Made by a program: the position numbers and the translations under genes. This document shows, piece after piece, positions 5,221-39,569 of a stretch of 49,108 nt of DNA. The notes under the pieces are model-generated. The model ran no database searches. It had not been told where the DNA came from and saw only the letters and a list, made by a program, of their open reading frames with translations. Numbering within the stretch: the stretch's first letter is position 1; each line of letters starts with the position of its first letter. The stretch lies in assembly GCA_028714635.1 (NCBI GenBank), contig JAQTLZ010000007.1, positions 1-49,108 on the forward strand. The letters run 5' to 3'. The stretch is from Candidatus Paceibacterota bacterium. Its GTDB lineage: Bacteria; Patescibacteriota; Minisyncoccia; Phycocordibacterales; JAQTLZ01.

Positions 5221-6150
5221 TTATGGAGTTGCTGTCGGAGAAGTTGTTGGAGATGGAGTAGCCGTTGGTGTTGCGACAGATGTAGCAGTAGGTGAAGGAG
5301 AAGGCGTTTCCTCATCAGATTTTTTATCACCAGAATTAAATCCCTTCAGTGCTTTCAAAATTGTTTCTGCATCTTTCCTGGCATCCCGAAGATCTGCGGC
5401 GCCTACTTTTATATCTGCTCGAGCTGCAAGAAGAGCTGCTCTATTAGCCTCTGCTTTTGTCTTATCCCCATTATCTGGTACAAGTCCGGAAATCCTGTCT
5501 TTTGCCGCCTTTGCCTGGACCAAAGCATCAGCAATTTGCGCGTTCATGTGTGCCAAGGTCGTATTCACAGCGGTAACGTCTTTACCCGCTGCTTGTGCCG
5601 TAGTAATTCGAGTCTTGAGCTTTCCACTAATCGTTGCGAGATTTCCTGCAATTGTTTCAATTCGCAAAGCTGCAGCAGTAATAGCCGCTTGGGGCATTAC
5701 GAGTGCAAAAATACGATGAGACGCTGTTATTGACTTCAGATCTGTTCGAAGGGTTGCTTCATCTGTATCAGCATCAATTTTTGTCTTAAGTACAGTAAGG
5801 ATATCGATCTGAGACTGTATTGAACCGGCAATCATAGATTTGCCCTCGTCAGATACTCGTTTTGCAGACTGTATTCGATCGTTTTGATTTTGAAGAGCAG
5901 CGATACGCCTGTCAATTTCTTTATCCCCCCTTTCGATAAGTTTAGAAAGATCACCATCCCATTTTGTTTTGGATCCCCGGTCCGCATCTCCCCGAAACTT
6001 TTCGGTCGATGATCCCATTCTGTCTTTCCCTCCGCGATCCGGCGTACCTGTCGCATTTCCGCCATCTTCTGCAATTACAGGAAGAGCGACGCCAGCCAGA
6101 AGTGTGAGACCTAAAGAAGAAGCAACGAGGAATTTATATTTAGTATTCAT
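5221..6150 (-). CDS. Secreted helical protein with Pro/Thr-rich tail
   Basis: A signal peptide covers residues 1-28 (TLLAGVALPVIA before the likely cleavage site). The mature protein is Ala/Asp/Lys-rich, helical and probably coiled, with repeating segments around 70-250. It ends in a Ser-Pro-Thr-Ala tail of about 25 residues like the linkers in the surface protein at 17060-19540. There is no cysteine in the mature part, so it is not an obvious DipZ substrate. It is the middle gene of a three-gene operon (22 bases after its upstream neighbour, six before dipZ). I cannot assign a family; a wall-associated structural role is inferred. Confidence 0.75.
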   Translation of the reverse strand: MNTKYKFLVASSLGLTLLAGVALPVIAEDGGNATGTPDRGGKDRMGSSTEKFRGDADRGSKTKWDGDLSKLIERGDKEIDRRIAALQNQNDRIQSAKRVSDEGKSMIAGSIQSQIDILTVLKTKIDADTDEATLRTDLKSITASHRIFALVMPQAAITAAALRIETIAGNLATISGKLKTRITTAQAAGKDVTAVNTTLAHMNAQIADALVQAKAAKDRISGLVPDNGDKTKAEANRAALLAARADIKVGAADLRDARKDAETILKALKGFNSGDKKSDEETPSPSPTATSVATPTATPSPTTSPTATP

Positions 6151-6172
6151 ATGATTGTGGGAAAAATTTTAT

Positions 6173-6442
6173 CTAGTAAGTTGATTGATCTTTGAGTCCG
6201 GCATCAGCATTTGCTGCGTCAGTATTCAAATCCGCCATGCCACTGTCCACAGCCTTTAGATCAGCGTCGAAAGAAGCATCAGAAGTATCCGTTGTAGAAA
6301 TACCAGATGGTGGCGGAGTAGCTGTTGCTTGAATCACCACAGGACTCACTACCGGAGTTTCTGTGGAACTTGTGCTTTTCCAATACATCCAACCAAGAAG
6401 CACGAGCACGATAATAACAATGACGATAATTATTTTTGACAT
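6173..6442 (-). CDS. Small membrane-anchored protein, 89 residues
   Basis: Residues 3-19 form one very hydrophobic segment (Ile/Val/Leu-rich), followed by WKS and a Thr/Pro/Ser-rich extracytoplasmic part with Asp/Ala-rich helical turns at 58-85. No family is recognised. The ATG at 6442 follows TTATATAAAAA directly, so the message probably has little or no leader. It opens the operon with the secreted helical protein and dipZ, which points to an envelope role. Confidence 0.7.
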   Translation of the reverse strand: MSKIIIVIVIIVLVLLGWMYWKSTSSTETPVVSPVVIQATATPPPSGISTTDTSDASFDADLKAVDSGMADLNTDAANADAGLKDQSTY

Positions 6443-6510
6443 TTTTTATATAAGAAAATCTGCTAATAAGCTCTTTCGAGCCTTCTCCTCTTTATTGTAT
6501 CACGCTTGAT

Positions 6511-8169
6511 TTATTTGTGAACTTCCCCTGATCCCTTTATATGAGCTTTGAAATACGCGAGAGTTCCTCCCACTTTTTTACCGGGATTGAAAATGTTTTG
6601 AGGGTCAAGAATATGCTTTACCTCTTTAAAAAGCCGGTACATCGGCGTTCCGAACATTTTCTCTACAAAAGGCGTCCGGACAATTCCGTCATTGTGCTCT
6701 GCGGTAATGCTTCCCCCGTATTCAACGATGAGCTCATACACCTTTTCAGAAACTGGAATGATTTTTGCCCGCTCGCTTTCTTTTGAAAGGTCCATGAGCG
6801 GAATGATGTGGTAATTTCCATTTCCCGCATGTCCCGCGATATTAGCTTTAATACCGTTTTCTTTCAGAATTGTGAGAACTTTTGGCAAAAATTCCGGCAT
6901 CTTTTCCGGCGGGACGATGAAATCGTCGATGAAAGGTGCAGTTTGCTTCCCCGCCACATGCTCTCGTAAGAGATTAAAGCTTTCTCGACGCATGATCCAA
7001 TATTTTTCAGAATCCGGACCATCAGCGAGCACACGCATATGCACAGGAAATTTTCTAAGCGTTCGGACAATTTTTAAGGTTTTTTCGTAGAGAACATCCT
7101 CTTTTTCCTCCGCAAGTTCAATAAGAACGATGAGTTTCGGAAGGCCGAACATTTCAATTCCGATGAACACTTCCGGCAAAAAACGGGACGCAAAACGAAG
7201 CAGGCTTTGGTGCACCTTCTTTGCAATTTCAGGCATAAACCGAATACCGAGCTTCAGCGTCGTATCATCAAAAGCTTCCATACTTTCAACTCCAAATGGC
7301 AAAACCGCGTTCACGACGGCAGGCAGATCATCCCAATTCTTAAAGAAAAGAGCGATGAGTTTCCTCTCCGGCGTATCTTTTACCAATCGGACCTTCGCTT
7401 CGGTCAAAAGCCCGAGCGTTCCTTGCGAACCAACAAAAATCTGTGAAAGATCGAATGTGTCTTTCGCTTTATCCCACACTCGCCAAAGAGCGTAACCGGA
7501 AGAGTTTTTAGAAGTTTTAGGAGCGGCGCTTTCAATCAAATCATGATTTTTTGTCACCAGACGGTGCATTTTCCTGTACACTTCACCTTCAAAATTTGCT
7601 TCTAAAAGTTTCTTTTGAAGCTCCTCGCGATTGAGTTTTCGGAAAGTGTATTCATTCCCGTCAGAAAGCACCATGTTCATTTCTTCTACGAAATCCCTCA
7701 TCTGGCCATAGCGCAAAGTTTTTTCCCCCGCGCAGTTATTCATGATCATTCCGCCGAGAGCGGCAAGCTGTTTTGAAGCCGGATAGATCGGTAAAGAGAC
7801 TTTTTCCGGGGTCGTTAAGGCCTCAAAGTCACGAAAAAATACGCCCGGCTCAACTGTACCCGTCAAAGCTCCAGCATCTATGGTTTTTTCTTTAAAATGT
7901 GACGTAAAATCCAAAACGATGGATTCACTAAGGGGGCCTCCGGTCATATCCGTACCCGCAGAGCGCCCGGTCAGGGAAAGTCCCGGCCGTTTTCCTTTTT
8001 CATGAGACACAAAAGAGACGAGCTTTTTTACATCTTCCCTGTTACGAGGAAAAACCACGAGCTTTGGCCTGACTTCAAGAAGTGAAGCATCGTGGCTATA
8101 TTTAGAAAGGGTTTCCGTATCATCAAGAACTTCGCCTGCAAATATTTTCTGGACCTCATCCTTAAACAT
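6511..8169 (-). CDS. FAD-binding oxidoreductase, GlcD/D-lactate dehydrogenase type
   Basis: The 552-residue protein has the two domains of the vanillyl-alcohol-oxidase/GlcD family. The PCMH-type FAD-binding half (about 35-230) carries SLTGRSAGTDMTGG near 62-75 and a GGMIMNNCAGE motif. The FAD-oxidase C-terminal half ends with AGHAGNGNYH (metal/substrate histidines), a conserved AEHNDG and DPQNIFNPGK. Members oxidise 2-hydroxy acids such as D-lactate or glycolate; the substrate cannot be told. There is no cysteine-rich Fe-S extension. A TATAAT box (complement of 8177-8182) is seven bases before the ATG and no Shine-Dalgarno is seen. It lies 24 bases after the HAD gene but has its own promoter. 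Confidence 0.9.
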   Translation of the reverse strand: MFKDEVQKIFAGEVLDDTETLSKYSHDASLLEVRPKLVVFPRNREDVKKLVSFVSHEKGKRPGLSLTGRSAGTDMTGGPLSESIVLDFTSHFKEKTIDAGALTGTVEPGVFFRDFEALTTPEKVSLPIYPASKQLAALGGMIMNNCAGEKTLRYGQMRDFVEEMNMVLSDGNEYTFRKLNREELQKKLLEANFEGEVYRKMHRLVTKNHDLIESAAPKTSKNSSGYALWRVWDKAKDTFDLSQIFVGSQGTLGLLTEAKVRLVKDTPERKLIALFFKNWDDLPAVVNAVLPFGVESMEAFDDTTLKLGIRFMPEIAKKVHQSLLRFASRFLPEVFIGIEMFGLPKLIVLIELAEEKEDVLYEKTLKIVRTLRKFPVHMRVLADGPDSEKYWIMRRESFNLLREHVAGKQTAPFIDDFIVPPEKMPEFLPKVLTILKENGIKANIAGHAGNGNYHIIPLMDLSKESERAKIIPVSEKVYELIVEYGGSITAEHNDGIVRTPFVEKMFGTPMYRLFKEVKHILDPQNIFNPGKKVGGTLAYFKAHIKGSGEVHK

Positions 8170-8193
8170 GCCAAGAATTATAGCAGAAGAACG

Positions 8194-8847
8194 TCACTCT
8201 CCCTGTTGATTTCTTTCCGCGAAGTAATCAGAAACTGCCGAAATCAAAGCTTCTGGCTCATGCACAATGCGATAAGGATTACCTTTTGTAAGACGCGCAT
8301 GCTCATGGTAGCCCCAAGATGCTCCGATTGAATCAACATCCATTTCACGCGCTTCGCGCATATCCCCAACCGTATCAGTGACAAAAACGCATTGTTCGGG
8401 CAAGATTTTATACTTTTCAAAAACCATTCTGATCTTTTCAACCTTGCTTGTGTGAACGTCATTACCCAAGAGATCCGCGAAATATTCTCGAATTGCATTT
8501 TTTTGCATAAATTCTTCAATGAGATAAGTCGGGGATGAAGATATAATGAAAAGAGTATATTTTTCAGCTAATTTCTTTACCACTCCGCTCACCCTTGGAA
8601 ATATGACTACGCGTTGCTGCATAAGAGGGGCATATTCCGCGAACCAATCAAAAATTTCATGCTTGCAATCGGGACTGTGCCAATGCGCAGTATTTTTGTC
8701 CCAGTCATGAACGTTTCCATCAAAGACTTCGAGCCACCTCTCTCTCGTTATTGTGGCGCAAATCTTTTTATTCAAATCCCACGACACCTCCGAAGAATCA
8801 GCGATAACGCCGTCGAAATCGAAAAGGATGTATTTTTTCTTTTTCAT
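8194..8847 (-). CDS. HAD-family hydrolase
   Basis: A haloacid-dehalogenase-like phosphatase. Motif I is DFDGV (nucleophile D10, acid/base D12), motif II is SSSP near 103-106, and motif IV is VFVTDTVGD near 153-161. The helical cap lies between motifs I and II, as in phosphoglycolate phosphatase-like enzymes. Substrate is unknown. A TATAAT box (complement of 8856-8861) sits eight bases before the ATG, directly after the terminator of the previous transcript. Confidence 0.88.
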   Translation of the reverse strand: MKKKKYILFDFDGVIADSSEVSWDLNKKICATITRERWLEVFDGNVHDWDKNTAHWHSPDCKHEIFDWFAEYAPLMQQRVVIFPRVSGVVKKLAEKYTLFIISSSPTYLIEEFMQKNAIREYFADLLGNDVHTSKVEKIRMVFEKYKILPEQCVFVTDTVGDMREAREMDVDSIGASWGYHEHARLTKGNPYRIVHEPEALISAVSDYFAERNQQGE

Positions 8848-8864
8848 ATTTACTGATTATATAC

Positions 8865-8897
8865 AAAAAAACACCAAGCTGTCGCTTGGTGTTTTTT
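8865..8897 (-). terminator. Intrinsic terminator after the helicase operon
   Basis: A perfect 10-bp stem (AACACCAAGC / GCTTGGTGTT) with a TGTC loop is flanked by A and T runs, so it can act on both strands. It ends the minus-strand transcript of the helicase and the small gene at 8905. Confidence 0.9.
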
Positions 8898-8904
8898 ATC
8901 GAAT

Positions 8905-9117
8905 TTATCGAATTTCTCGAAGCCGGACAAGACAGGGCACGCAAGTAGTCTGTCCTGGACGAGTTTTTAGATATTTATTTCCACATACGCAGAGAAGCAC
9001 GGTGCTTTTTGTGACCTTTTCTACCCACTTACCTTTCATATTCTGATACTGCCGAGGAGGCAACACAACGGCAACGGGCATTGGCTTTTTACTTTTTGTT
9101 TTTGTGGTAGTTTTCAT
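8905..9117 (-). CDS. Small basic zinc-ribbon-like protein
   Basis: A 70-residue basic protein. The N-terminus is Lys/Thr-rich, and the C-terminal half carries CVCGN and CVPC, a CxC plus CxxC set that could hold one zinc ion and bind nucleic acid. No family is recognised. ATG 9117 is chosen over an in-frame TTG at 9138 that overlaps the helicase stop codon. It follows the helicase by 13 bases and shares its terminator, so a linked RNA role is plausible but unproven. Confidence 0.65.
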   Translation of the reverse strand: MKTTTKTKSKKPMPVAVVLPPRQYQNMKGKWVEKVTKSTVLLCVCGNKYLKTRPGQTTCVPCLVRLREIR

Positions 9118-9130
9118 GGCAAAAGAAAAA

Positions 9131-10510
9131 TTATTCAATAAATGTTAAAGCTTTACCTTTCTTTCCTCCTCGTCCTGTTCGTCCGATTCGGTGGACATAG
9201 TCGTCGTAGGTCGCAGGAAGTTCGTAGTTAATTACATGGGATACATCCGGAATATCGAGGCCTCGAGCAGCGACGTCTGTTGCCACAAGGATCTGTGCAT
9301 GGCTCTTTTTGAAAGCGTCCAATGCGCGTACTCGTTGTGATTGATTCTTGTTTCCGTGGATTGATTCTGCTTTGAAACCTTTTTGGTTCAAAAGTTTCGT
9401 AAGTTTTTCCACCCCGTGTTTTGTCCGCCCGAAAATAAGTACTTTATTGAATTCTTTTTGGTTCAAAAGATCGTGAAGGGTGTCGAGCTTATCTGCTCCG
9501 CGTACTCGCACAACGTCTTGATCAACACTTTTTGCAGTGTCTCGTGTTTTTACTGAAATTCGAACCGGTTCATGGAGAAATTCTTTGATAAGTTTTTCGA
9601 TTTCACCAGAAATCGTTGCGGAGAAGAAAAGGGTGTGTCGTTTCTGTGGCATTCCTTTCATAATGAGTCGCATATCATTTACGAATCCCATATCAAGCAT
9701 CCGGTCGGCTTCGTCGAGAACAATAGAATTGAATTCATGAAGATGAATCATCTTTCGCTCGATAAGATCTTTCACTCGCCCAGGAGTACCTATGATGAAA
9801 TTGTATTGAAATCGCAGATCTCGAAGCTGTTTGCCGATCGGAGCGCCTCCAACACAGCACACAGAGAACATTTTCATGCTCTTGGTAAGAATTTTGAGCT
9901 CTTCGTCGATCTGCATTGCAAGTTCTCGCGTCGGAGCGAGCACCATTACTTGCTCTTTTCGATTGAGTCGTACTTTTTGAATGAGAGGAATAAGAAATGC
10001 CGCGGTCTTCCCTGTTCCAGTGTTTGCAATTCCAACAATGTCAGAGCCATTTAGGATATGCGGAATAGCCCGGTCTTGAATCGGAGTTGGGGTTGTATAG
10101 CCTTTCGCAACGACAGAAGCTTTGAGCTCTGCGTCAATTTTGAAATCAGTGAAAGCATGTTCGGGGACAAAATGTTCAACCTCTTCGGTGATTACAGCTT
10201 TATTTATAAATCGAGCAGTATCAATTCGCTCTCCGCCTCCACGAGAACCGCTTCGTCCTCCAAAGTGAGGACGCGACCCGCCCTGACCGCCACCGAAACG
10301 TCGAGGGCCACTACTATGTCCTCCAAATCGGGATGGACCAGAAGAAGAACCGCCAAATCGAGAAGGTTGCGGGTTTGAACGGGAATGCGAAGAACTTCCA
10401 CTAGATGAGCTACGAGAAAAACCGCCAGAACGCGGAGCGCTGGAATTTGAAGACGAATGAGTATGATACGGCTTGCGAGGGCCGTTATTGTGAGACTGTT
10501 TTGGATGCAT
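9131..10510 (-). CDS. DEAD-box RNA helicase
   Basis: An ATP-dependent RNA helicase of the RhlE/DeaD type. A long N-terminal extension (about 100 residues) is rich in Ser, Gly, Arg and His with RFGG-type repeats and is probably disordered and RNA-binding. The core follows with the Q motif (TPTPIQ), AxxGTGKT (TGTGKTAAF), PTRELA, DEADRM, SAT, ARGLD and HRIGRTGR. The protein ends soon after the last motif with no C-terminal extension, so the disordered tail of many homologues is moved to the front. ATG 10510 is preferred because AGGA lies six bases upstream; the frame itself opens at a TTG 12 bases earlier. Confidence 0.95.
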   Translation of the reverse strand: MHPKQSHNNGPRKPYHTHSSSNSSAPRSGGFSRSSSSGSSSHSRSNPQPSRFGGSSSGPSRFGGHSSGPRRFGGGQGGSRPHFGGRSGSRGGGERIDTARFINKAVITEEVEHFVPEHAFTDFKIDAELKASVVAKGYTTPTPIQDRAIPHILNGSDIVGIANTGTGKTAAFLIPLIQKVRLNRKEQVMVLAPTRELAMQIDEELKILTKSMKMFSVCCVGGAPIGKQLRDLRFQYNFIIGTPGRVKDLIERKMIHLHEFNSIVLDEADRMLDMGFVNDMRLIMKGMPQKRHTLFFSATISGEIEKLIKEFLHEPVRISVKTRDTAKSVDQDVVRVRGADKLDTLHDLLNQKEFNKVLIFGRTKHGVEKLTKLLNQKGFKAESIHGNKNQSQRVRALDAFKKSHAQILVATDVAARGLDIPDVSHVINYELPATYDDYVHRIGRTGRGGKKGKALTFIE

Positions 10511-17059: not shown

Positions 17060-19540
17060 CTAAGACTCCAAGAGCTGATTTACGAATCCTCGAGTGACCG
17101 TCCCGAAAATACCTGTCCCCTCGGTAATATCCGCTGGAATAAGAATTTCATTTGGATGCGCGTTTTGGAATTTTTTCATCGCATCTCTCGTTTTTTCTCC
17201 GTAATACGTGGTCTCATGGCCGGAAGATCCATTTCCACTTTGAGAAACAGTAAAGCCTTGTCCATTCAAAAATGTTTGGAGTACTTTTACATCATTTCCC
17301 TCCATGCCGAGCATAAGATTTCTCGTGAATTCAAAATGAATCGTCGATGCACCAAGAACACTGCCGTGCGAATTGATCGATGGAGTTGCGGGTACTGCTG
17401 GACTTACTCCCGGTATCGCAGGAGTTGCGGGGGTAGCTGCATTTGGATTTCTGGTGCCACCACTGCTGCCTCCGCCCGGTTTCGGTTTAGGAGTTGGAGA
17501 AGGTGTCGGTGCAGGAGTTGGCGATGGTGTAGGACTTAGTGTGGGGCTTGGCGATGGGGTTGGTGAAGGCGTTACAACCGGAGTAGGTGTTGGAGTAGCA
17601 GTCGGCTCGGGGGTGGGGCTAGGTGTAGGTTCAGGAGTTGGGGACGGAGTTGATTCCGGAGTGGGGCTTGGGGTCGGGACGGGAGTAGGACTCGGCGTAG
17701 GTACTGGTGTTGGAGAAGGAGTCACAACTGGAGTCGGACTTGGGGTAGGTTCGGGCGTAGGTGAAGGAGTGGGAACCGGCGTTGGGGTTGGTGTTGGTTC
17801 AGGTGTGGGCGTTGGAGTGGGTTCCGGGGTTGGAGACGGCGTTGGGACAGGAGTAGGTGATGGCGTAGGTACTGGAGTTGGCGATGGTGTAGGAGACGGC
17901 GTCGGGGTCGGAGTTGGGACAGGCTGAACTACCTGATTAAGCGTCGGCACAGATGTTGTCTGCCCTGCTCCAGTCGTTGAATTAAAATTTGAATCCCCTT
18001 CATAAGCAACTTTTAATTTTCGTGTACCGACTGGTAAATTGCTAACAACAAGAGAAGCGTGTCCTGTCACATCAAGAGTTGATGTACCAATTACTATCGG
18101 TGTTCCTGAAGCAGTAACATCTCTAAAATCTGCGATGCCTGTTGGAATCCGTAAATCTCCGGCAACAGCTGGAGTGATAGAGACCGTCAAAGTAACCGGC
18201 TGGCCGAAAATAGAAGGATTGTTATCAGAAGTCAAAATACTCGTTGTAACGTTTGTTTTGGGAACAGGAGTAGGGCTCGGGGTTGGCGAGGGTGTCGGAC
18301 TTGGTGTTGGAGAAGGAGTAGGCGTTGGGCTTGGCGTAGGTTCTGGCGTAGGAGAAGGAGTTGGCTCCGGTGTAGGGCTAGGTGTTGGTTCGGGGGTCGG
18401 TGTGGGCGTAGGCACAGGTGTTGGAGTAGGAGTTGGAACGGGGGTAGGAGACGGCGTAGGAACCGGCGTTGGCGTCGGGGTTGGAGCAACAACATTCACT
18501 GTTCGCGTGACCTGTGTAGCATTGTTAAGCGCTAAGTCCGCCACATTATAAGTAACCACATGCGAACCAGGGACTGATGTGTCAACTGGTAATCCTCCGG
18601 TAACGATCGAAGCAGTGAGATCACCATCTTCCGTGTCGCTCGCAGTTGCTCCCGCATCCGCGTAAACGTCTCCGACAAGAACGGTTGCAGGATTTACACC
18701 AAGACGAGTAATGACAGGATTTGTATGATCCGGGGTAACAGTGACTGAAGGAGTCAAAGAGACGCCGCCACCTCCAGCCGTTGCGTTAAAATTACTGTCT
18801 CCAAGATATTTTGCGTTTATATCAGATGTGCTGACAGAGGTATTATTTCCGAGAGTACTAATATCGAACACTGCGTTCCCACTAGCATCAGGTATGGCGG
18901 TTCCAAGGTGCGTTCCAGTGCCGGCTAAGTTGAATTGAACCTGGCCGTTTGGAGTTCCTACCCCGCCAGTAGCAGAATTTGAGACATTTACGGAAAGAGT
19001 GACTGTTTGGCCGAAAAAGGGAGAAAAATTATCTGCAGTAAAATTGGTTAATTTCACATTCGCCTTGTTCACCGTTTTTGTAATTGCCGCAGTTTTACCA
19101 ACAAGAGTCCCGGAAAGTGAGCCTGTAACTGCCGTCACTGTCCCCGTCAAAGTAACAGAACCGGCGGTCGTATCTCGATAGAAAAATCCCGGAGTATTTT
19201 GCGAGTTTGAAGGAATCACAAGTGAAAGGCTTGAGCTTGCAAATGCACCGGTAGTGGTTGCATCAAAGCGCCCGGTTGCAGAGCTTGAAGTAACGAGCAC
19301 AGTCATTGAATCCCCGCCAGAAATATCTTCTCCAGTACTTCCCACATTTTGCGACTGAATCCGAAGCGGAGAACTTGCCGCATTCGATACTCCAACAGTA
19401 AAGCTCGAAGGCTGGCTGGTTGCATTAAAACCGATCTTTGTAACAGAAGTACTTACTGCAAATGCGGGAAACGCAAGAAAAGAACTGAATACAAGACAAA
19501 CCACCAGAAAGACAGATGCTCCCTTAGAAAAAATTTTCAT
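17060..19540 (-). CDS. Large surface protein: Ig-like domains, Pro/Thr spacers, PG-binding-like end
   Basis: An 826-residue secreted protein. A signal peptide (1-28) is followed by a first beta-rich region, an Ig-like domain of the Big_3_5 type (about 165-260), a DUF5011/HYR-like Ig domain (about 270-350), a Pro-Thr-Ser spacer (about 352-428), a second Big_3_5-like domain (430-530) and a second, longer spacer (535-695). The last 90 residues resemble a peptidoglycan-binding-1-type domain ([22 protein letters not shown], then [14 protein letters not shown]), which could anchor it to the wall. The layout suits a long stalk or adhesin. The spacers are short PTP(S/V/E) units that could vary in number by slippage. 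It is expressed alone. Confidence 0.85.
17480..17925. repeat. Long degenerate tandem repeat (Pro-Thr spacer 2)
   Basis: About 445 bases of near-tandem 6- and 12-base units (GGxGTx periodicity on the plus strand) encode the PTPSPTP-like spacer. Each unit varies at third positions, so the repeat is maintained more at protein than DNA level. The antisense Gly/Val-rich frame is a shadow. Confidence 0.85.
18257..18487. repeat. Degenerate tandem repeat (Pro-Thr spacer 1)
   Basis: About 230 bases of the same 6/12-base unit type as at 17480-17925, encoding the first spacer. The two tracts are in the same orientation and could recombine, removing the second Ig-like domain between them. Confidence 0.8.
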
Positions 19541-30221: not shown

Positions 30222-31214
30222 TTATTCGGATGACTTATCCACAGATGACGCGAGAAAGTCTTTCAGAAGAGATTTTATTTTCACCGCATCTTCCGCTTCC
30301 ATAAGTTTGACTCGTAATTCTTTCGCACCAGGGAAACCTTCAACGTATGCTTTGAAATGTTTTTTCATAAGTGCGAAATTTTTAACCCCGCCGAGAAGTT
30401 TCTCAAAAGTTTCCGTATGCTCGCACATAACTTCAAATCTTTCAGGGAGCGGAACATCTTCAAGTTTTCTTTCTTGGAAAAGCCACGGATTGCCGAAAAT
30501 AGCGCGACCGAGCATTGCTCCATCTGCTCCAGACTCTTTTATTTTCGCTCGCCCATCTTCGAGGTCTTTCACATCGCCATTTCCAAGAATAAGGCTCTGG
30601 CTTTTCAGTTCATTGCGAATTTCTACCGCTCTCTTCACCACATCCCATCGCGCAGGAACTTTTGACATCTCTTTTCGCGTGCGGGCATGAACAATCACAG
30701 CGGATGGCTCTTCTGCCAAAATTTCTGGAAGCCATGTTTCGATTTCATTCTTGTTCCAGCCAATCCGAGTCTTCACTGAAACGGGCAAACTTCCCGCTCC
30801 CCTTTTCGCAGCTTGGATAATTTCTCGAGCACGTTTCGGGTTTTTGATAAGTGCCGCGCCTGCTCCTTGTTTTTCGATTGGCCCCGCCGGACATCCCATA
30901 TTGATATCAATTCCATCGAACCCGAGCTCTCCAGCAAGCTGTGCCGCTTTTTCTATCATCTCTGACTTCCCAGAGAAAAATTGCGCAACAATCGGACGTT
31001 CAGATTCAGAGAACAGTAAATCTTTTTTTAATTTTGCTTTTCCCTCTTCGTCCGCCATCACAAGCCCATCAGCAGAAACAAATTCTGTGTACATCACATC
31101 TGGCTTCCCATATTTTGCAATAATGCGCCGAAAAGCCGCGTCCGTAACATCTGCCATCGGAGCAAGTATCATTATTGGCTTTTTCAACTTCGCCCAAAAT
31201 CCAGAATTGACCAT
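30222..31214 (-). CDS. dus: tRNA-dihydrouridine synthase
   Basis: An FMN enzyme that reduces uridines in tRNA D-loops. The start of the TIM barrel (ILAPMADVTDAAFR) binds FMN, NMGCPA carries the catalytic cysteine, KTRIGW and HARTRKE follow, and GNGDVKDL and GAMLGRAIFGNPW bind phosphate. At 330 residues it is a DusB-like form. A TACAAT box (complement of 31223-31228) lies eight bases before the ATG, and there is no Shine-Dalgarno. It is the only clear housekeeping gene within the 28-32.5 kb accessory stretch. Confidence 0.95.
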   Translation of the reverse strand: MVNSGFWAKLKKPIMILAPMADVTDAAFRRIIAKYGKPDVMYTEFVSADGLVMADEEGKAKLKKDLLFSESERPIVAQFFSGKSEMIEKAAQLAGELGFDGIDINMGCPAGPIEKQGAGAALIKNPKRAREIIQAAKRGAGSLPVSVKTRIGWNKNEIETWLPEILAEEPSAVIVHARTRKEMSKVPARWDVVKRAVEIRNELKSQSLILGNGDVKDLEDGRAKIKESGADGAMLGRAIFGNPWLFQERKLEDVPLPERFEVMCEHTETFEKLLGGVKNFALMKKHFKAYVEGFPGAKELRVKLMEAEDAVKIKSLLKDFLASSVDKSSE

Positions 31215-31614: not shown

Positions 31615-31694
31615 CATTTCGGGTCATTGTGGCTCATTTGTAAGCATTTGAGAGAACATTGGGGGACGTTTTTTTACAGAAAGGACGGTGCGTG

Positions 31695-32444
31695 ATGTTG
31701 ACCAAGAGAAATTTTCCCAAGACTCCTCGGAAGCTGAGGAGAGTGTTCAGGAACAATGAGGACTGCCTCAAGTACATCATCAAGGCGCGCTGGCCAGGAG
31801 GCTTCATATGCCCGGATTGTGGCTGTGATCGTAGTTGCCGCTTGACCACAAGACGGGTCATTCAGTGTGCGGAATGCCGGAAGCAGATCAGTTTAACTGT
31901 CGGCACGACGATGGACCACACGCACATTGCGTTGACCAAGTGGTTCCTGGCGGCGTTCATGCTTTTGCAGGATGAATACTGCAGTGCGATCAAGATGCAG
32001 AGGGTCCTCGGTCTCAAACGATATGAGCCGGGCTTCTACATGTTGCACAAGTTGCGCGAGAGTATGGCGACAGCAAACATGAAGTATGAGAATAAGTCTG
32101 TCCACCTCGCGCAGTGCGTACTCGGAGGCATCGGCATATGCGACCGGGACAAAGTGCTGATTGCGCTTGTAAACGATAAGTTGGTGCTGAAACACGTGGA
32201 TCTAAGAAACCTGGAAAGGTTCTGCGAAGCGAACGGTTTTTCGCCGCTTGAAAAGACAGACCGCGAAACGAAGATAAAACTGTTCAAGATCTTCAAGACG
32301 ATCAAGGACAAGATGAACTTGAGGTATCACGGCGTCGATCCCAAGCGTCTGCAGCCCTATCTCGATCAGTGCACCTTCATGTGGAACCGCAACGATAAAG
32401 CCAAAGCGTTCCACGAGATGTTGGGGCTCGTCGAAGTGGCATAG
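31695..32444 (+). CDS. IS1595/ISXO2-type transposase derivative lacking the DDE core
   Basis: The first 125 residues match the IS1595-family transposase front end: CLKYIIKARWPGGFICPDCG and IQCAECRKQ form a zinc ribbon (C39, C42, C58, C61), then the GTTMDHTHIALTKWF and MLHKLRESM motifs of its helix-turn-helix part. The C-terminal 40 residues also match (YHGVDPKRLQPYLDQ, WNRN), the end of the DDE domain. The middle is only about 80 residues and lacks VDET and the later catalytic acids, so it cannot transpose. No flanking inverted repeats were found. It has its own promoter, AAAGGA site and perfect terminator and an intact frame, which suggests domestication as a DNA-binding protein rather than decay. 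Confidence 0.75.
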   Translation: MLTKRNFPKTPRKLRRVFRNNEDCLKYIIKARWPGGFICPDCGCDRSCRLTTRRVIQCAECRKQISLTVGTTMDHTHIALTKWFLAAFMLLQDEYCSAIKMQRVLGLKRYEPGFYMLHKLRESMATANMKYENKSVHLAQCVLGGIGICDRDKVLIALVNDKLVLKHVDLRNLERFCEANGFSPLEKTDRETKIKLFKIFKTIKDKMNLRYHGVDPKRLQPYLDQCTFMWNRNDKAKAFHEMLGLVEVA

Positions 32445-32608: not shown

Positions 32609-33181
32609 ATGATTATTGGAATTACTGGAACGCTCGGTGCCGGAAAGGGCACCATCGTCGAATATCTTGTGAGGAAAAAGGGATTTAAGCATTTTGGCGT
32701 CTCTGACACTTTTCTTACGAATGAAGCCGTAAAACGCGGGCTTAAACCTGACCGGGTCACCAGACGAATTATCGCGAATGAATTTCGAGCACTTGGCCCC
32801 ACAAAACTCATGGAAGAAGTGTACAAACTTGCAAAGGATGCAATAGCGAAAAAGGAGAACGTTATCATTGAACCGCAACACACAGTTTCCGAAGTTGAAT
32901 TCATCCACTCACTTGGCGGGATTGAATTTGCCGTGGATGCACCGCTTGAAGTGCGGTATGAGAGGATTAAAAAAAGAGGAGGTGAAAAAGACCAGATAAG
33001 TTTTGAGGAATTTAGGAAGGAACAGGAATTCCAAATGTCTCAAAAAGACCCGAACAAAAACAATCTCGCCAACGCAATGGCGAAAGCTGATTATCATTTT
33101 CAAAATGTCGGCACGAAGAAAGAGCTCGAGAAACAGATTGAGAATGTTTTAAAAAGCATCAAGCAAAATCTGCCGAAGTAA
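32609..33181 (+). CDS. P-loop nucleotide/dephospho-CoA kinase-like protein
   Basis: The N-terminus IGITGTLGAGKGTIVEYL is a Walker A of the AAA/nucleoside-kinase type. VIIEPQHTVSEVEFI takes the place of Walker B, and the VDAPLEVRYERIKKRGG lid helix with two arginines is typical of dephospho-CoA and nucleoside-monophosphate kinases. At 190 residues the size fits. The substrate is not clear; it is annotated at family level only. TACTAT at 32597-32602 lies six bases before the ATG. The 3' end overlaps the convergent Clp gene by 23 bases. Confidence 0.82.
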   Translation: MIIGITGTLGAGKGTIVEYLVRKKGFKHFGVSDTFLTNEAVKRGLKPDRVTRRIIANEFRALGPTKLMEEVYKLAKDAIAKKENVIIEPQHTVSEVEFIHSLGGIEFAVDAPLEVRYERIKKRGGEKDQISFEEFRKEQEFQMSQKDPNKNNLANAMAKADYHFQNVGTKKELEKQIENVLKSIKQNLPK

Positions 33182-35588
33182 GTTCAACTTTTGAACCGGA
33201 GGAAATCTCGCCTCTAATTAGTTTGTCCGCCACAAGTTGTTCTACTTTGTCCTGCACCGCTCGATTCATGGGGCGTGCGCCGAATTTCGGGTCGGTGCCG
33301 GCTTTTACCACCTCATCGAGAGTTGCGTCATTAATCACAAACTCGACTCCTTTCTCTCGGAGACGTTTCTGAAGCTTTTGAAGCATGAGTGTAGCAATTT
33401 TTCGTAACTCTGCATCGTTCAAAGGCTTGAAAAGAATCACCCCATCAAAACGGTTCAAAAGTTCGGGCTTGAATATCCCCTGCTCGATGATTGAATCGAT
33501 AAGCGTATTTTTCTCCCCCGCAAGATCTTTTCCACTTTCAACTGCTTTGAAAATAATATCGCTCCCTGCGTTCGAAGTCGCAATAATGATAAGATTTCTC
33601 GCGTTCACCTTCTTGCCAGCCATATCCGAAAATATTCCTTCATCGATTATCTGCAAAAAGAGATCAAGCACTTCTTTCATTGTTTTCTCAAACTCGTCGA
33701 GCAAAAGTACGCCGTACGGATGCTCGCGTAGCATTGAAGTCAAAACTCCAGGTTTTCCTCCTTCAAATGAGCCGATAAGGCGCTCCAGTGCGTCATCGGT
33801 GCGATATTCAGACATATCAAGCCGAAGAATTTTCGACTCATCACCAAAGAAAGTTGCTGCGAGCGCTTTTGTCGTTTCAGTTTTTCCTACTCCAGTCGGA
33901 CCAAGGAAAAGAAACGAACCCATCGGCCTGTCTTTACTTCCCACTCCCGAGCGAGCCCGGCGAAGCGCCGAAGCAATTGCCTTGATGGCCTCGTCTTGGC
34001 CGACAATTCTTTTATGAAGCACTGATTCCAAATCGGCAAGCACGCCTTTTTCTTTCGGAGTTACTTCCCCAAGCGGAATTCCTGTTTTTGTTCCTAAAAG
34101 CGCCAAGACTTCTTCTTTTCCAATAACCCCCTTTTTCTTTTGATGAGCGTACGGAATTAATTCAAAAAGAATATCGAGTGCCTTATCAAGCGGACTTGCA
34201 TCCATATAATATCGCGCAACGCTTTGTGCGACCGCGACGAGAGCTGGATAGGTAAAGAAAACTCCCGATTTGTATTCAAGAGAAAGGGCACTTCGGCAAA
34301 GCGCGTCCAAAAGGCTTCCTTCGTTATCAGAAACGAGCGTTACTTTTTCGAAATATTCACTGCAAAGTTGGTTTGGCTCTATGTCTTGGCGATAGGAACC
34401 TGCGCCAGAAAAAGCAATAATTTGAAGGTGTGAAGAAGCAAAATAGGTTTCCATAAGGCTAAGCACTTCGGAGTGGAGAGCTTTCGCACCAGAAAGGAGA
34501 ACAGAAAAATCTTTGAACACGAGAATGACGTTGCCCGCTTTTATCGCTTCATTCAATATTTGAATGAGCTCAATCTCGAACGCAGCCTTTTCTTTGGTAA
34601 GATCAACCAAAAGCGAGGCGTTCAAAACAAAAAGTCTTTTATGTTCAAGCGGAGCGAAGACATCTCCCCGAGAAATTTTCCCAGCCAGAGAAGAAAGGAT
34701 TTTATCTTTTCTCGTTTCATCATCCCCCACCAGAATGACGTTGGAACTGCGATTACGGCAGAGAATTTTCTCAATTTCTTCGACTTCTGAAAGCAAAGCC
34801 TGCTTCGATCTCTCCTCGCCCAAACCAGAATCGGTGATGTCCGTAGCGTATTTAAGAAGGGTGTAAGCATTGCCATATGCCCAATCCTTGCCAATTCCTT
34901 GAATGCGGGCAAGATGATCTTTCCCCCACCATCTTAAATGTAATTTTTCCTCGCGAAGCGAATCTTCAACCCAGGACGTTGCTCCGATAAATTCTTTTTC
35001 TTGAATTTGGTGCTGGAAAAGAAATTCTTGAAATTCTTTGTCTTGTTTAAAAATGTGTGCAACATAATCAGTAACGGAAATTCCCCCTTCGCCGTCAATA
35101 CAGACGACATCACCAAAATTTTCAGCAGAAAGCGGGACCTCTCGTCCTTCTAAAAAAGTTTTTGCATCATCTGGATTAATTCCGCATCGCACAAGAATTA
35201 TTTCAGCTATGTCAGATCGAAGAAATCCTGCAGTTACATCATCTGGATAGCTGTGATACACAAGAGAGGCGACTTCAAGAGTAATAATCTCGCTTCCCGC
35301 TTCAAGCGCAGTTTCATTCAATATCGGATCCAGGTGCCAGAAATAAAACGAAAAGTAAAATGCATCGGCGACTGTAATAAGGATAAGGGCCGCAAAAAGC
35401 AAGAAACAAGCGCCGTAAACAAGATGCGATGGCACCAAAGTTCCAATTTGTATAAGAAGGAATGAAAGAAGCGCAATACCGATGATCACATCTCGAAGCA
35501 TTTTTCTTTTGCGACGAGAAATGATGTCCTCAAGAAGAAGGACCGGATTATAGGGTTTCGTCGCTTTTTTTAATTCTTCAAACGTCAT
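33159..35588 (-). CDS. Membrane-anchored Clp-type AAA+ ATPase with degenerate first domain
   Basis: An 809-residue ClpA/ClpC relative. Two transmembrane helices (about 33-50 and 57-80) replace a normal start, then a Clp-N-like region (about 95-215). AAA domain 1 is degenerate: Walker A reads GDDETRKDK at 288-296 in place of GxxxxGKT, and Walker B lacks its Glu (LVFKDFS, 356-362). Domain 2 is intact: GPTGVGKTE (563-571), LLLDEFEK, sensor ATSNAGS and arginine NRFDG. The tripeptide loop that binds ClpP is not seen after the sensor, so it probably works without ClpP. It overlaps the upstream membrane-protein gene by four bases. Role inferred: unfolding or disaggregation at the membrane. Confidence 0.88.
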   Translation of the reverse strand: MTFEELKKATKPYNPVLLLEDIISRRKRKMLRDVIIGIALLSFLLIQIGTLVPSHLVYGACFLLFAALILITVADAFYFSFYFWHLDPILNETALEAGSEIITLEVASLVYHSYPDDVTAGFLRSDIAEIILVRCGINPDDAKTFLEGREVPLSAENFGDVVCIDGEGGISVTDYVAHIFKQDKEFQEFLFQHQIQEKEFIGATSWVEDSLREEKLHLRWWGKDHLARIQGIGKDWAYGNAYTLLKYATDITDSGLGEERSKQALLSEVEEIEKILCRNRSSNVILVGDDETRKDKILSSLAGKISRGDVFAPLEHKRLFVLNASLLVDLTKEKAAFEIELIQILNEAIKAGNVILVFKDFSVLLSGAKALHSEVLSLMETYFASSHLQIIAFSGAGSYRQDIEPNQLCSEYFEKVTLVSDNEGSLLDALCRSALSLEYKSGVFFTYPALVAVAQSVARYYMDASPLDKALDILFELIPYAHQKKKGVIGKEEVLALLGTKTGIPLGEVTPKEKGVLADLESVLHKRIVGQDEAIKAIASALRRARSGVGSKDRPMGSFLFLGPTGVGKTETTKALAATFFGDESKILRLDMSEYRTDDALERLIGSFEGGKPGVLTSMLREHPYGVLLLDEFEKTMKEVLDLFLQIIDEGIFSDMAGKKVNARNLIIIATSNAGSDIIFKAVESGKDLAGEKNTLIDSIIEQGIFKPELLNRFDGVILFKPLNDAELRKIATLMLQKLQKRLREKGVEFVINDATLDEVVKAGTDPKFGARPMNRAVQDKVEQLVADKLIRGEISSGSKVELTSADFA

Positions 35589-35980
35589 ACTGTTGTGAAT
35601 AACTCATGAAAACCCTGATAAACAAGGAGCGCGACCAAAAAAGGAAGAAAGCACCAGATTACTAAAAATGAAGCGGAAAGAAGAATCGAAACGCAAAGAA
35701 CAAAAAAGGCTACGAAAAGCGTTACTGCGCGGATAAGCACGCCCACAATCCTCATCATCGTATTTACAACAAAAGAAGAAAAAATTGCTTCTACATTAAA
35801 ACCTCCGCGATACTCTTCATTAAGACGTCTCCAGGGCGAGAAAAAAGTTTTGAGGAGTATCGGAACCGAAAAAAAATGATAGAGAAACCAGATGAAATTG
35901 TGAGCGATGCCCACAATTGCGTTTAAAGCTCGAGAGTAGTGCCAAGTGAAATAATGTTCGAAAAAGAGAGCAATTTCCAT
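35585..35980 (-). CDS. Membrane protein co-translated with the Clp ATPase
   Basis: A 131-residue protein with hydrophobic stretches at about 20-48 and 78-128 and a charged middle (SPWRRLNEEYRGG) that is probably cytoplasmic. I do not recognise a family. Its stop codon overlaps the Clp start (ATGA), so the two are likely coupled and may form one membrane complex. TATACT (complement of 35989-35994) lies eight bases before the ATG. Confidence 0.8.
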   Translation of the reverse strand: MEIALFFEHYFTWHYSRALNAIVGIAHNFIWFLYHFFSVPILLKTFFSPWRRLNEEYRGGFNVEAIFSSFVVNTMMRIVGVLIRAVTLFVAFFVLCVSILLSASFLVIWCFLPFLVALLVYQGFHELFTTV

Positions 35981-36052
35981 ACATATATAGTATACCCCGT
36001 GAGATAGCCCTTCTGTATCTCGGAGTAATCCACATGTCTATTATAGAAATCG

Positions 36053-36080
36053 TTGACAAAAATGGTTATCGGCATAAACT
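36053..36080 (+). promoter_or_regulatory. Promoter of the ACP-like gene
   Basis: A perfect TTGACA (36053-36058) is 16 bases from TAAACT (36075-36080), leaving a leader of about 50 bases. Confidence 0.55.
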
Positions 36081-36138
36081 AGTGCACCAGGGGTTTGTGA
36101 AGTACATTTTTGGCGCAGGGGGCAGAAAGGAAAGGTCT

Positions 36139-36393
36139 ATGTCGAACACGCGAGTAAAGGGGCGCCCAATCGAAGAGTTGATTGCGACGGCTCTCGGGAT
36201 TAATCCGCAGGAGGCAAGGACGAAGATTTTGCCGTCCACGACGTTTACAAGTCTCGGAATGCGCCAGGAGCATCGCCTGAGACTCTGTGACCAGATTCAA
36301 CAAGAGATGGGGGTTGTCATGACGACCGAAGAGATATTCGGAGCTGGCTCGCCCGAAAATCTTGCCGTAGAGGTCCGTTCGAAAAGCAGGTAG
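36139..36393 (+). CDS. Acyl-carrier-protein-like protein without the serine
   Basis: 84 residues with the length and pattern of an acyl carrier protein: IEELIATALGINPQ as helix 1, a loop, FTSLGMRQEHRLRLCDQIQQEMGV as the conserved LG-loop and helix 2, then MTTEEIFGAGSPENLAVEV as helices 3-4. In true carriers LGxDSL holds the phosphopantetheine serine; here it is LGMRQE, so Ser is Gln43 and Asp is Arg42. It therefore cannot carry an acyl group in the usual way. ATG 36139 has AAAGGAAAGG upstream; the frame opens earlier without such a site. It has its own promoter and terminator. The fold assignment is by eye. Confidence 0.6.
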   Translation: MSNTRVKGRPIEELIATALGINPQEARTKILPSTTFTSLGMRQEHRLRLCDQIQQEMGVVMTTEEIFGAGSPENLAVEVRSKSR

Positions 36394-36518: not shown

Positions 36519-36540
36519 AAGAAAGGTTAATACCTTTCTT
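36519..36540 (-). terminator. Hairpin overlapping the ftsQ stop codon
   Basis: AAGAAAGGT pairs perfectly with ACCTTTCTT around a 4-base loop, followed on the minus strand by TTTTTG. The ftsQ stop codon (36539-36541) overlaps the first two bases of the stem. Confidence 0.7.
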
Positions 36541-37378
36541 ATTTGTAAAAAACCTTATTATCAAATCGAAGGTCAATATATTCCAAAGTTGTGGGAATTC
36601 CCTTTTCTCCCCAATCAAGCGTTGAGTCATTAAAAAGTGATTCCAGATTCTGAAGAGCCGTATCATACGGCATCCCCGTGCGTAGAAGAAGTTTATGTCC
36701 CCCTTCAATATGTACTTCCAATTCCCCGCCCGAGTCAGCAACTATAAAAAGAGGCGTAATATGAAGGGCTCCAAGAAATTCGAGAAAAGCGGAGAGATTG
36801 TGAAGGTCATCAGAAGTTAAAAAATGCTCTCCAATCGGATCAGTTTGTTTTTCAACTGCGCCGGAATAGGTCAAAAGATTGGGAGGCAAAGGGTCGCTCG
36901 CTTCCGCAAAAATCAGTCCATCTTTATCGAGAAGATAGCACTTTGCATTTGCAGGTGGAAGAGAAGTTACCTTGCCCGTACACCAGAAAGCAAAGGGCTC
37001 GCGTTCTGTAATCTTTATGAGAAGGGTGTGTACATCAGCTCGTGTGACTTTGACGCTTTCCACCGAAGGGAAAGTATTCAGAATATCGTTCTCAATTTTT
37101 TGCTTTGGAAAGAAAAGGCTATTTGCTCGGGAAATAAAATGAAAATATTTTCCCTCGAGCTCTCCTCGAGCTACCTTTTCAATAAGAGAAGCATTCGCGC
37201 TGTCGGCTCCAACAACCTGGACAGCATGAATCGTCGTAGCAGAAATGCCGGATACGTAAGAGAGAGAAAAGAGGATCACTACCACAGCGAAAACAACCGC
37301 TATCACCTTTCCGATTAGGCGCTTGCGCTTGCGGTTATAAACCCGAGAATGTTTTAAAATTGATTTTCGACTGTACAT
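36539..37378 (-). CDS. ftsQ: FtsQ/DivIB-like division protein with POTRA domain
   Basis: A bitopic protein: a basic cytoplasmic tail (RKRKRLIGK), one membrane helix (about 24-46), then a POTRA domain (about 48-120: IHAVQVVGADSAN, LFFPKQKIENDILNTFPSVESVKVTR and KITEREPFAFW) and a beta domain. This is the FtsQ layout; FtsQ links the early and late division machinery. The first in-frame ATG (37408) lies inside serS, so MYSRKS at 37378, ten bases after the serS stop, is preferred. It is probably co-transcribed with serS, without the usual mur/fts neighbours. Confidence 0.82.
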   Translation of the reverse strand: MYSRKSILKHSRVYNRKRKRLIGKVIAVVFAVVVILFSLSYVSGISATTIHAVQVVGADSANASLIEKVARGELEGKYFHFISRANSLFFPKQKIENDILNTFPSVESVKVTRADVHTLLIKITEREPFAFWCTGKVTSLPPANAKCYLLDKDGLIFAEASDPLPPNLLTYSGAVEKQTDPIGEHFLTSDDLHNLSAFLEFLGALHITPLFIVADSGGELEVHIEGGHKLLLRTGMPYDTALQNLESLFNDSTLDWGEKGIPTTLEYIDLRFDNKVFYK

Positions 37379-37388
37379 GAAAAGAGGC

Positions 37389-38663
37389 TTATCTTTTCTT
37401 CGGCGCAATCATACTGTCTCCAAAATAAGGTTGGAGGACTTCAGGAATTGCAATAGAACCATCTCCTTGCTGGAAATTTTCGACGAGAGAAACGAGGATG
37501 CGCGGAGTGGGAATCGCGGTGTTATTGAGTGAGTGGGCAAATTTCATTTTCCCATCGGTATCTTTGTAGCGGATATTTAGTCGGCGGGTTTGGAAATCAT
37601 GGAAATAAGAAGCCGATGCGATCTCGCGATATTTCTTCTCAAGTGGAACCCAAAGCTCCAAGTCATACTTTTTCACTTGTCCTAGCCCCAAGTCCCCTCC
37701 GCAATTTATTACTCTGTGATATGGAATGCCAAGCGATTCGATGAATTCTTCGGTGTTTCGGGTAAGTTCTTCGTGAAATCGTACCGATGTCTCGTGGCTC
37801 GCTTCACAGAGAATGACTTGCTCGAATTTATAAAATTCATGAACGCGGATAAGTCCTTTCACATCTTTACTATGACTTCCCGCTTCTCTGCGAAAACACG
37901 GAGAAAAGGCCAAAAACTTTTTTGGCAAATCTTCCATCGGAAGAATTTCGTCGCTATGGTATCCCATCGTTGCCACTTCTCCCGTGCCAGCAAGAAAATC
38001 TCCGTCTTGCGTCTTATACAAATCTTCTTCGCCTTGTGGAAGAAATCCTGTGCCGAGCAAATTTTCTCTTCGTACGAGCGACGGCACGATCATCGGTGAA
38101 AATCCTTTTTTAGAAAAGAAATCGAGTGCGTAATTCCAAATTGCGAAAGAAAGCTTTACTCCAGCATCTTTCAAAAAATAGCCTCGGAAGCCAGCGACTT
38201 TCGCTCCGCGAACCAAATCTACCATTCCAAGATTTTCCATAAGCTCGATATGATTTTTCGGCGTGAAATCAAATTCAGGCAAAGAACCCCATTTTTTCAC
38301 TTCCATATTGCCCACATCACTCTCGCCATCCGGCACGGTCATATCCGGAATATTCGGCACGAGAAGCATAAGCGAGCGCCACTTTTTCATTATTTCCTCA
38401 AGCTCGGTTTCCTCTTTATTCATGTCCGCCTTAAACTTCCGCATTTCAAAAATCATTGCGTCGCGCTCCGCTGGGTCCTTTGCGCTCGCAACTTTATCAC
38501 TCACGACATTTTGCTCGGTGCGTTTCTTCTCCACTGATTGAAGTTTCATCTTCCGGAGATCATCAGTAGCAAGAAGTTCCTCCACATCAAAAGCAACAAA
38601 TTTCTTTTTTGCAGCAAGGGCAATAAGGTCTTTATTTTCTCGGATGAACTTGATATCGAGCAT
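37389..38663 (-). CDS. serS: Seryl-tRNA synthetase
   Basis: A class II synthetase charging tRNA-Ser. The start MLDIKFIRENKDL leads into the N-terminal coiled-coil arm (about 28-105). Motif 2 is FSPCFRREAGS, and motif 3 is LNNTAIPTPRILVSLVEN. Length (424 residues) is normal. ATG 38663 has TATACT (complement of 38673-38678) nine bases upstream and no Shine-Dalgarno; codons further up to 38720 are not family-like. It is divergent from dprA and probably leads into ftsQ. Confidence 0.96.
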   Translation of the reverse strand: MLDIKFIRENKDLIALAAKKKFVAFDVEELLATDDLRKMKLQSVEKKRTEQNVVSDKVASAKDPAERDAMIFEMRKFKADMNKEETELEEIMKKWRSLMLLVPNIPDMTVPDGESDVGNMEVKKWGSLPEFDFTPKNHIELMENLGMVDLVRGAKVAGFRGYFLKDAGVKLSFAIWNYALDFFSKKGFSPMIVPSLVRRENLLGTGFLPQGEEDLYKTQDGDFLAGTGEVATMGYHSDEILPMEDLPKKFLAFSPCFRREAGSHSKDVKGLIRVHEFYKFEQVILCEASHETSVRFHEELTRNTEEFIESLGIPYHRVINCGGDLGLGQVKKYDLELWVPLEKKYREIASASYFHDFQTRRLNIRYKDTDGKMKFAHSLNNTAIPTPRILVSLVENFQQGDGSIAIPEVLQPYFGDSMIAPKKR

Positions 38664-38702
38664 AGTTACAACAGTATATAATAGATAGTGCAATAAAAAA
38701 AG

Positions 38703-39569
38703 ATGGATAACAAGATTCAAAAAATCGGTCCAAAAGATTTTCCTCCACTCCTTCGCGAGATCAATGACCCTCCGAAAAAGCTTTACGTGAAAGGAACGCT
38801 CCCCGATTGGAAAGAAAATATGTTTTTAGCAGTTGTCGGTGCACGAAAATATACGAGTTATGGAAAAGAAGCTTGCGAGAAATTAATTGCTGGCCTTCGC
38901 GGATACCCTATCGTGATTGTTTCTGGGCTTGCACTTGGAATTGATTCCATCGCCCACCGAGCAGCGCTGGATGCGGGATTAAAAACCATTGCAGTCCCCG
39001 GCTCGGGGCTTGGCCCAGAATTTATTTATCCACGCTCGCATGTTGCCCTTGCAGAGAAAATTGTTGAATCCGGCGGAGCGCTCCTTTCTGAATTTGAACC
39101 AAAAACTCCAGGGTATCCGAAAAACTTTCCCCAGCGTAATCGCATCATGGCGGGAATGACACATGCCACACTAGTCGTAGAAGCAGAGATTCGCTCGGGT
39201 ACACTTATCACATCCAAATTTGCAATCGAATACAATAGAGACGTACTGACCATCCCAGGCTCAATTTTTTCGAAAACTTCCGAAGGCCCGCACATGCTCC
39301 TTCGGCTTGGTGCCACACCAATCACCACAAGCGAGGAACTTCTCGAAGCTCTTGGATTTGAACAAGACGAGGAAACAAGAACTCAAGTGCTTTTTGCAGA
39401 TGCTTCGCCAGAAGAACAAATTATTCTCAATTTTCTTGTAGAACCCATGACTCGAGATGAACTCATTCGCACCTGCGGGAAAAGTACATCAGAGATGAAC
39501 GTTCTACTATCAGGAATGGAGATAAAAGGAATGATAAAAGAGAGCTTGGGAGAGCTTCGAAAAACTTGA
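38703..39569 (+). CDS. dprA: DNA-processing protein DprA
   Basis: Loads RecA on incoming single-stranded DNA during transformation. The Rossmann-like core has VVGARKYTSYG, VSGLALGIDSIAHRAAL, GSGLGPEFIYPRSH, FPQRNRIMAGM and SGTLITSKFA, all typical. The C-terminal 60 residues are a small winged-helix domain (ASPEEQIILNFLVEPMTRDELIRTCG). No SAM-like N-terminal domain is present. TATAAT near 38677 lies about 20 bases before the ATG. It implies the cell may take up DNA, in line with the accessory genes around. Confidence 0.95.
   Translation: MDNKIQKIGPKDFPPLLREINDPPKKLYVKGTLPDWKENMFLAVVGARKYTSYGKEACEKLIAGLRGYPIVIVSGLALGIDSIAHRAALDAGLKTIAVPGSGLGPEFIYPRSHVALAEKIVESGGALLSEFEPKTPGYPKNFPQRNRIMAGMTHATLVVEAEIRSGTLITSKFAIEYNRDVLTIPGSIFSKTSEGPHMLLRLGATPITTSEELLEALGFEQDEETRTQVLFADASPEEQIILNFLVEPMTRDELIRTCGKSTSEMNVLLSGMEIKGMIKESLGELRKT

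Follow-up and report, generated by a model that had tools for sequence, protein, structure and literature searches.

Clp/Hsp100 rings are threading unfoldases. In ClpB, the pore-loop tyrosines Y251 and Y653 of D1 and D2 grip the substrate by direct contact (PMC6546751). Torsins are related to Clp/HSP100, lack aromatic pore loops, and require membrane cofactors, and a case has been made that they do not thread (PMC5425593). They have a single AAA domain and work in the ER lumen, and their cofactors LAP1 and LULL1, themselves AAA-like, contribute a residue to the active site. Bcs1 is a membrane-anchored AAA protein of the classic clade that has one ring and moves folded cargo without threading (PMC11143374). 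FtsH and Msp1 are AAA machines anchored in the membrane at their N-termini. ClpI of the Actinomycetota, recognized from its sequence, is an additional Clp class with one subtype that lacks the LGF loop; its ATPase modules and unfolding motifs are intact, and a membrane anchor is unmentioned in that report (PMC10149685).

The window is a 49,108-nucleotide stretch of a Candidatus Paceibacterota genome that encodes a Clp-type protein and a small membrane partner. The Clp resembles ClpC/ClpB (Hsp100 class I) in having a putative, decayed N-domain, D1, D2, and D2-small, which follow in identical order. It differs from them in having a transmembrane hairpin and an obligate membrane partner, in lacking the aromatic pore loops, the ClpP loop, and the long M-domain, and in a D1 that is degenerate in the window's clade. 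The likeness to torsins, a lack of aromatic pore loops combined with a membrane partner, is an analogy only; the modeled partner is helical, whereas the torsin cofactors are AAA-like. Homology with Bcs1 is limited to AAA+, and compared to FtsH and Msp1 the window Clp is a two-ring Clp-type protein without a protease domain. A text search of the open-access literature returned no description of the pair, which does not prove that none exists.

The genome is 0.99 Mb in 23 contigs. ClpP, FtsH, and FtsZ are encoded in it as well, as are a canonical ClpC-like protein and a second paralogue with two AAA domains. The pair and its parts are located in the window as follows.

35585-35980, minus strand: small membrane partner, ORF of 131 amino acids
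35585-35588, minus strand: ATGA overlap of the partner stop and the Clp start
33159-35588, minus strand: Clp-type two-AAA protein, 809 amino acids, ATG start
35343-35516, minus strand: N-terminal transmembrane hairpin, amino acids 25-82, from hydropathy and model
34911-35291, minus strand: putative degenerate Clp N-domain, about amino acids 100-226, from profile-profile comparison
34872-34898, minus strand: family signature linker GIGKDWAYG, amino acids 231-239
34149-34811, minus strand: D1 AAA domain, folded and catalytically degenerate
34704-34727, minus strand: D1 Walker A remnant GDDETRKD, K retained and GxxxxGK[ST] lost
34506-34532, minus strand: D1 Walker B remnant NVILVFKDF, DE lost
33174-34061, minus strand: D2 AAA domain, ATPase motifs intact
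33879-33902, minus strand: D2 Walker A GPTGVGKT
33741-33776, minus strand: D2 pore-loop segment IGSFEGGKPGVL, four residues shorter than canonical and without GYVG
33684-33710, minus strand: D2 Walker B LLLDEFEK

Translation of the partner and the Clp is likely coupled through the ATGA overlap. Hydropathy places hydrophobic stretches at residues 29-59 and 48-86 of the Clp N-terminus, and its AlphaFold2 model (pLDDT 84, pTM 0.76) has helices at 25-48 and 55-82. D1 is modeled as an AAA core of strands and helices with a folded five-strand core, and it has no KYRG pore loop. D2 carries ATSN, NRFD, and GARPMNR in addition to its Walker motifs. The ClpP-loop segment is shortened and lacks IG[FL]. 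The partner consists of an aromatic helix (residues 2-36), a PW[RK]R loop, and a long hydrophobic C-terminal helical region (63-130); its model (pLDDT 94) is an all-helical membrane protein that is not AAA-like, and no relative was found among Pfam families or PDB folds. The original prediction, made from the DNA of this locus, had described a small membrane protein joined by ATGA to a Clp ATPase with two N-terminal membrane helices, a D1 stripped of Walker A and B residues, an intact D2, and no visible ClpP-binding loop. All of these features are present. Both ORFs lie within the span it gave, 33159-35994, the end of which is slightly beyond the partner ORF.

The region between the hairpin and D1 probably corresponds to a decayed Clp N-domain, which the original prediction had missed. 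It does not score with PF02861, and hhalign against a single sequence did not detect Clp_N. The homology was traced profile against profile with distant relatives as intermediates. The profile of the window's clade matches that of the distant family (99.7%, 4e-27), which in turn matches canonical Clp_N across both repeats (96.6%, 6.7e-10); the direct comparison of the window-clade profile with Clp_N gave only 40.8%. A decayed Clp N-domain behind the hairpin points to a protein derived from ClpC.

The Clp matches Pfam AAA_2 (1.6e-38) and ClpB_D2-small (7e-23), its PDB match is ClpB (1e-90), and the top full-length fold match of its model is a ClpC-ClpP model. D2 is ~39% identical to the canonical Clp of the same genome, and AAA_2 and ClpB_D2-small occur together with Walker A/B, the sensor, and the Arg finger, as expected of an Hsp100 D2. 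The curated NCBIfam cut-offs for ClpA, ClpB, TssH/ClpV, ClpK, and ClpG are not reached; the highest score, for ClpB, is 369 bits where 1232 are required. The intact D1 Walker A and B that go with the two ATP-hydrolyzing rings of ClpC and ClpB are lacking, and D1 has no Walker A in the window protein or in any of the 29 members of its clade. The M41 peptidase domain that is the hallmark of FtsH is absent from the Clp, and FtsH is encoded elsewhere in the genome. These data agree with the earlier view that the protein is not ClpA, ClpB, ClpC, or FtsH. In a D2 tree that took in the 90 partner-linked Clps then collected, these proteins form one clade with no canonical intruder and a support of only 0.52; support for the window's clade is 0.92. 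A 554-amino acid cytosolic two-AAA paralogue in the window's genome (L002; G000:C3:57221-58786) has no N-domain, keeps a GYIG loop in D2, and in this tree falls immediately outside the membrane family. Of the canonical ClpC-like gene there is one complete copy (G000:C1:200.4-203 kb); a nearly identical but partial one lies on a 3.2 kb contig (G000:C20) and reflects an assembly variant or a duplication.

The partner was found in 43 of 98 genomes of the order, and the Clp gene is adjacent or fused to it in all 43; two of these genomes carry the fusion. This adjacency, together with the AAA_2, ClpB_D2-small, and PDB ClpB matches, argues that the pair is not a chance association. Across the phylum, the partner profile matches 129 of 380 genomes (E <= 0.001, the weakest marginal), and a distant N-terminal profile matches 209 of 380. 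The partner is directly upstream or fused in the first 40 distant loci (40/40). Of a further 20 loci, from genomes without a strong match to the first partner profile, 17 have a diverged partner that lies upstream of the Clp or is fused to it, and three have a weak probable fusion, which brings the distant loci to 57/60 with a clear partner and 3/60 with a weak one. Fusions of the partner and the Clp occur in several lineages. Named carriers include Berkelbacteria, Saccharibacteria, Moranbacteria, Yanofskybacteria, Gottesmanbacteria, Woykebacteria, Gribaldobacteria, WS2, and Dojkabacteria. The named-genome scan returned no match with a partner outside the Patescibacteria; it is not a measure of distribution because its query was a narrower linker alignment. 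Its matches beyond the phylum (Nocardioides and others) are canonical Clps that have no partner, and the majority of the complete sequences carry GYVG. As judged from sequence, the Clp and its partner appear to constitute a Patescibacteria-wide family.

The fusions and the obligate adjacency indicate that the two proteins work together. They also bear on the idea that the Clp is merely a divergent ordinary ClpC or ClpB, paired with a membrane gene by operon synteny only. Its top PDB and fold matches are indeed ClpB and ClpC, but the pairing persists phylum-wide while all other neighbors change, the same genome encodes a separate canonical ClpC-like protein, and the fusion of the two genes in several lineages largely refutes this explanation, which we regard as very improbable.

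A motif census covered 110 family members, 29 from the window's clade and 81 from elsewhere, with canonical relatives aligned alongside for the D1 and D2 pore loops. Every member has Walker A and B in D2 (110/110), and 109/110 have the Arg finger; sensor 2, like Walker B and the Arg finger, is essentially invariant in D2. The D1 pore loop [YF]RG occurs in 0/110 members compared to 18/20 canonical relatives, and the D2 loop G-aromatic-hydrophobic-G in 0/110 compared to 16/18. The secondary D2 pore motif EKH was found in none of 90 members, and the ClpP-docking loop (IG[FL]/LGF) in none of 110. The original prediction had named homologues with a ClpP loop or without the membrane partner as evidence against it; no member has the loop, and no partner-less homologue was found among the 43 order genomes and 60 distant loci. 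It had also made a dead first ring the defining trait and asked whether the pair and the D1 losses always occur together. The pairing is constant, but D1 Walker A is found in 0/29 of the window's clade and 35/81 elsewhere, and both D1 Walker motifs are retained in 18 of the 110 members (0/29 in the window's clade). Homologues with a working D1 had also been named as evidence against the prediction, and these 18 members are, in part, such evidence. D1 loss was therefore rejected as the hallmark. The constant features of the family appear to be an active D2, the membrane anchor with its partner, and the missing grips; D1 decay seems to have come later and unevenly. The decisive feature is the loss of both aromatic pore loops, which the original prediction had missed.

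In the window's clade, the shortened D2 loop has the Phe of IGSF in 17/29 members and some aromatic residue in 24/29, so a substitute grip is possible. Dojkabacteria members also have a Phe near the D2 loop. The protein may be an envelope unfoldase or extractase independent of ClpP, with D2 threading membrane proteins through substitute loop residues such as this conserved Phe. An intact D2 motor, a retained if decayed Clp_N, and the existence of membrane AAA extractors such as Msp1 (PMC12793716) suit such a machine. The canonical D1 and D2 loops are nevertheless missing in every member, the secondary EKH motif is lost, the D2 loop varies in length and sequence outside the window's clade, and two fusion proteins (genomes G088 and G053) have no D2 pore loop altogether. 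We consider this explanation possible although unlikely. The original prediction of a separate, ClpP-independent envelope unfoldase thus holds as to a separate, ClpP-independent, membrane-anchored protein with an obligate partner, and the loop losses speak against the word unfoldase in its customary meaning. One relative (L277) retains a near-canonical loop, GYPGYEEGG, and is perhaps an evolutionary intermediate. Another (L132, G396:C20, ORF 5368-9132) has an intein-like insert of ~418 amino acids exactly in the D2 P-loop (GPTGVGK / TETSKAL). Four distant Clps (L278, L280, L281, and L286) have a CxxC...CxxC zinc-ribbon-like N-terminus ahead of the membrane hairpin.

Another possibility is a degradation machine, tethered to the membrane, that has no usual loop and yet delivers its substrates to ClpP or a different protease. 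ClpP is encoded in 95/98 order genomes, and the fusion gene of G088 (L075, 8225-10721) is convergent beside clpP. However, IG[FL] is missing throughout the family, ClpP was not detected in a 98% complete genome that has the pair (G011), and no protease gene was found among the conserved neighbors, which leaves this explanation quite improbable. The presence of ClpP, FtsH, or FtsZ showed no clear relation to the pair. Replacement of FtsH by the pair was rejected with FtsH missing from 5/43 pair-positive and 6/55 pair-negative genomes, and dependence of the pair on ClpP or FtsZ was set aside when co-occurrence gave no clear pattern.

The conserved neighbors of the pair in the window are these.

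37389-38720, minus strand: SerS, identified by sequence and synteny cluster
36539-37408, minus strand: FtsQ/DivIB-like (POTRA) gene, Pfam match just below the cut-off
30222-31214, minus strand: DusB-like gene

The order arrangement is serS-ftsQ-[partner-Clp]-dusB-dnaX in 14/20 loci, and a DusB-like gene also adjoins the pair in four loci of one distant lineage. In other lineages, mraZ-rsmH-ftsL-like-[partner-Clp]-mraY/wecA-like is found in 7/10 extended loci, which were picked partly after rsmH or ftsL had already been seen there, and in one locus (L116) the pair directly precedes mraZ-rsmH-ftsL-like-ftsI. Only 5/60 unselected distant loci have a division-gene context. A link to division is no more than suggested, because most distant loci lack it and the extended loci were partly preselected. 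Outside the order there are mostly no conserved neighbors, and the pair alone is constant. An acyl-carrier-like ORF (36034-36393, plus strand; PP-binding match just below the cut-off) lies between the ftsQ-like gene and the partner in the opposite orientation and is absent from the other order loci inspected.

Recurrence of ftsQ or ftsL-mraZ-rsmH beside the pair, the decayed D1, and the lost pore loops would also fit a scaffold or regulator with little catalysis, an ATP-switched membrane platform that tethers, for example, divisome or wall-synthesis proteins. However, D2 scarcely varies in its Walker B, its Arg finger, or its sensor 2, which argues for hydrolysis, and we judge this explanation improbable.

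The explanation we favor, tentatively and at slightly less than an even chance, is a membrane-tethered, ClpP-independent, probably non-threading Clp remodeling complex formed with the partner across the Patescibacteria. Threading into a protease most likely does not occur, because neither pore loop remains and the loop that docks ClpP is gone too. The two gene products would form one membrane complex, in which a ClpC-derived two-ring AAA+ protein, presumably a hexamer, is anchored on the cytosolic side of the membrane through its hairpin and the partner, a putative membrane cofactor. D2 would be the ATP-hydrolyzing motor, and D1 would act as a structural ring or scaffold that, in the window's clade, may no longer bind or hydrolyze ATP normally. 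ATP-driven conformational change could then reshape or take apart complexes of the membrane or envelope, the presumed substrates, in a torsin- or Bcs1-like manner. The foremost candidate for its site of action is the divisome, because the pair is repeatedly beside ftsQ, or ftsL and mraZ-rsmH. A more specific version is a more doubtful proposition: a non-threading, Patescibacteria-wide membrane Clp, equivalent in its mode of action to torsin or Bcs1, that arose from ClpC by addition of the hairpin and obligate cofactor, followed by loss of the pore loops, and that serves envelope or divisome assembly in cells of such reduced make-up. Throughout the phylum, a vast assemblage of minute, uncultured bacteria, the family appears to have kept the D2 motor, lost the grips, and become tethered by a dedicated partner, and its membrane-based job is probably different from that of its threading relatives. 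If so, the pair would represent a separate instance of a Clp-type ATPase in non-threading membrane work, a long-standing puzzle of the torsins for which a bacterial version could be purified and tested. A conserved, uncharacterized two-gene unit would also join the envelope and division machinery of the Patescibacteria.

Two other genes of the window were observed. An 826-amino acid protein (17060-19540, minus strand) combines bacterial Ig-like domains with a peptidoglycan-binding domain and is probably a surface protein. A zinc-ribbon protein (31659-32444, plus strand) resembles the N-terminus of IS1595-type transposases.
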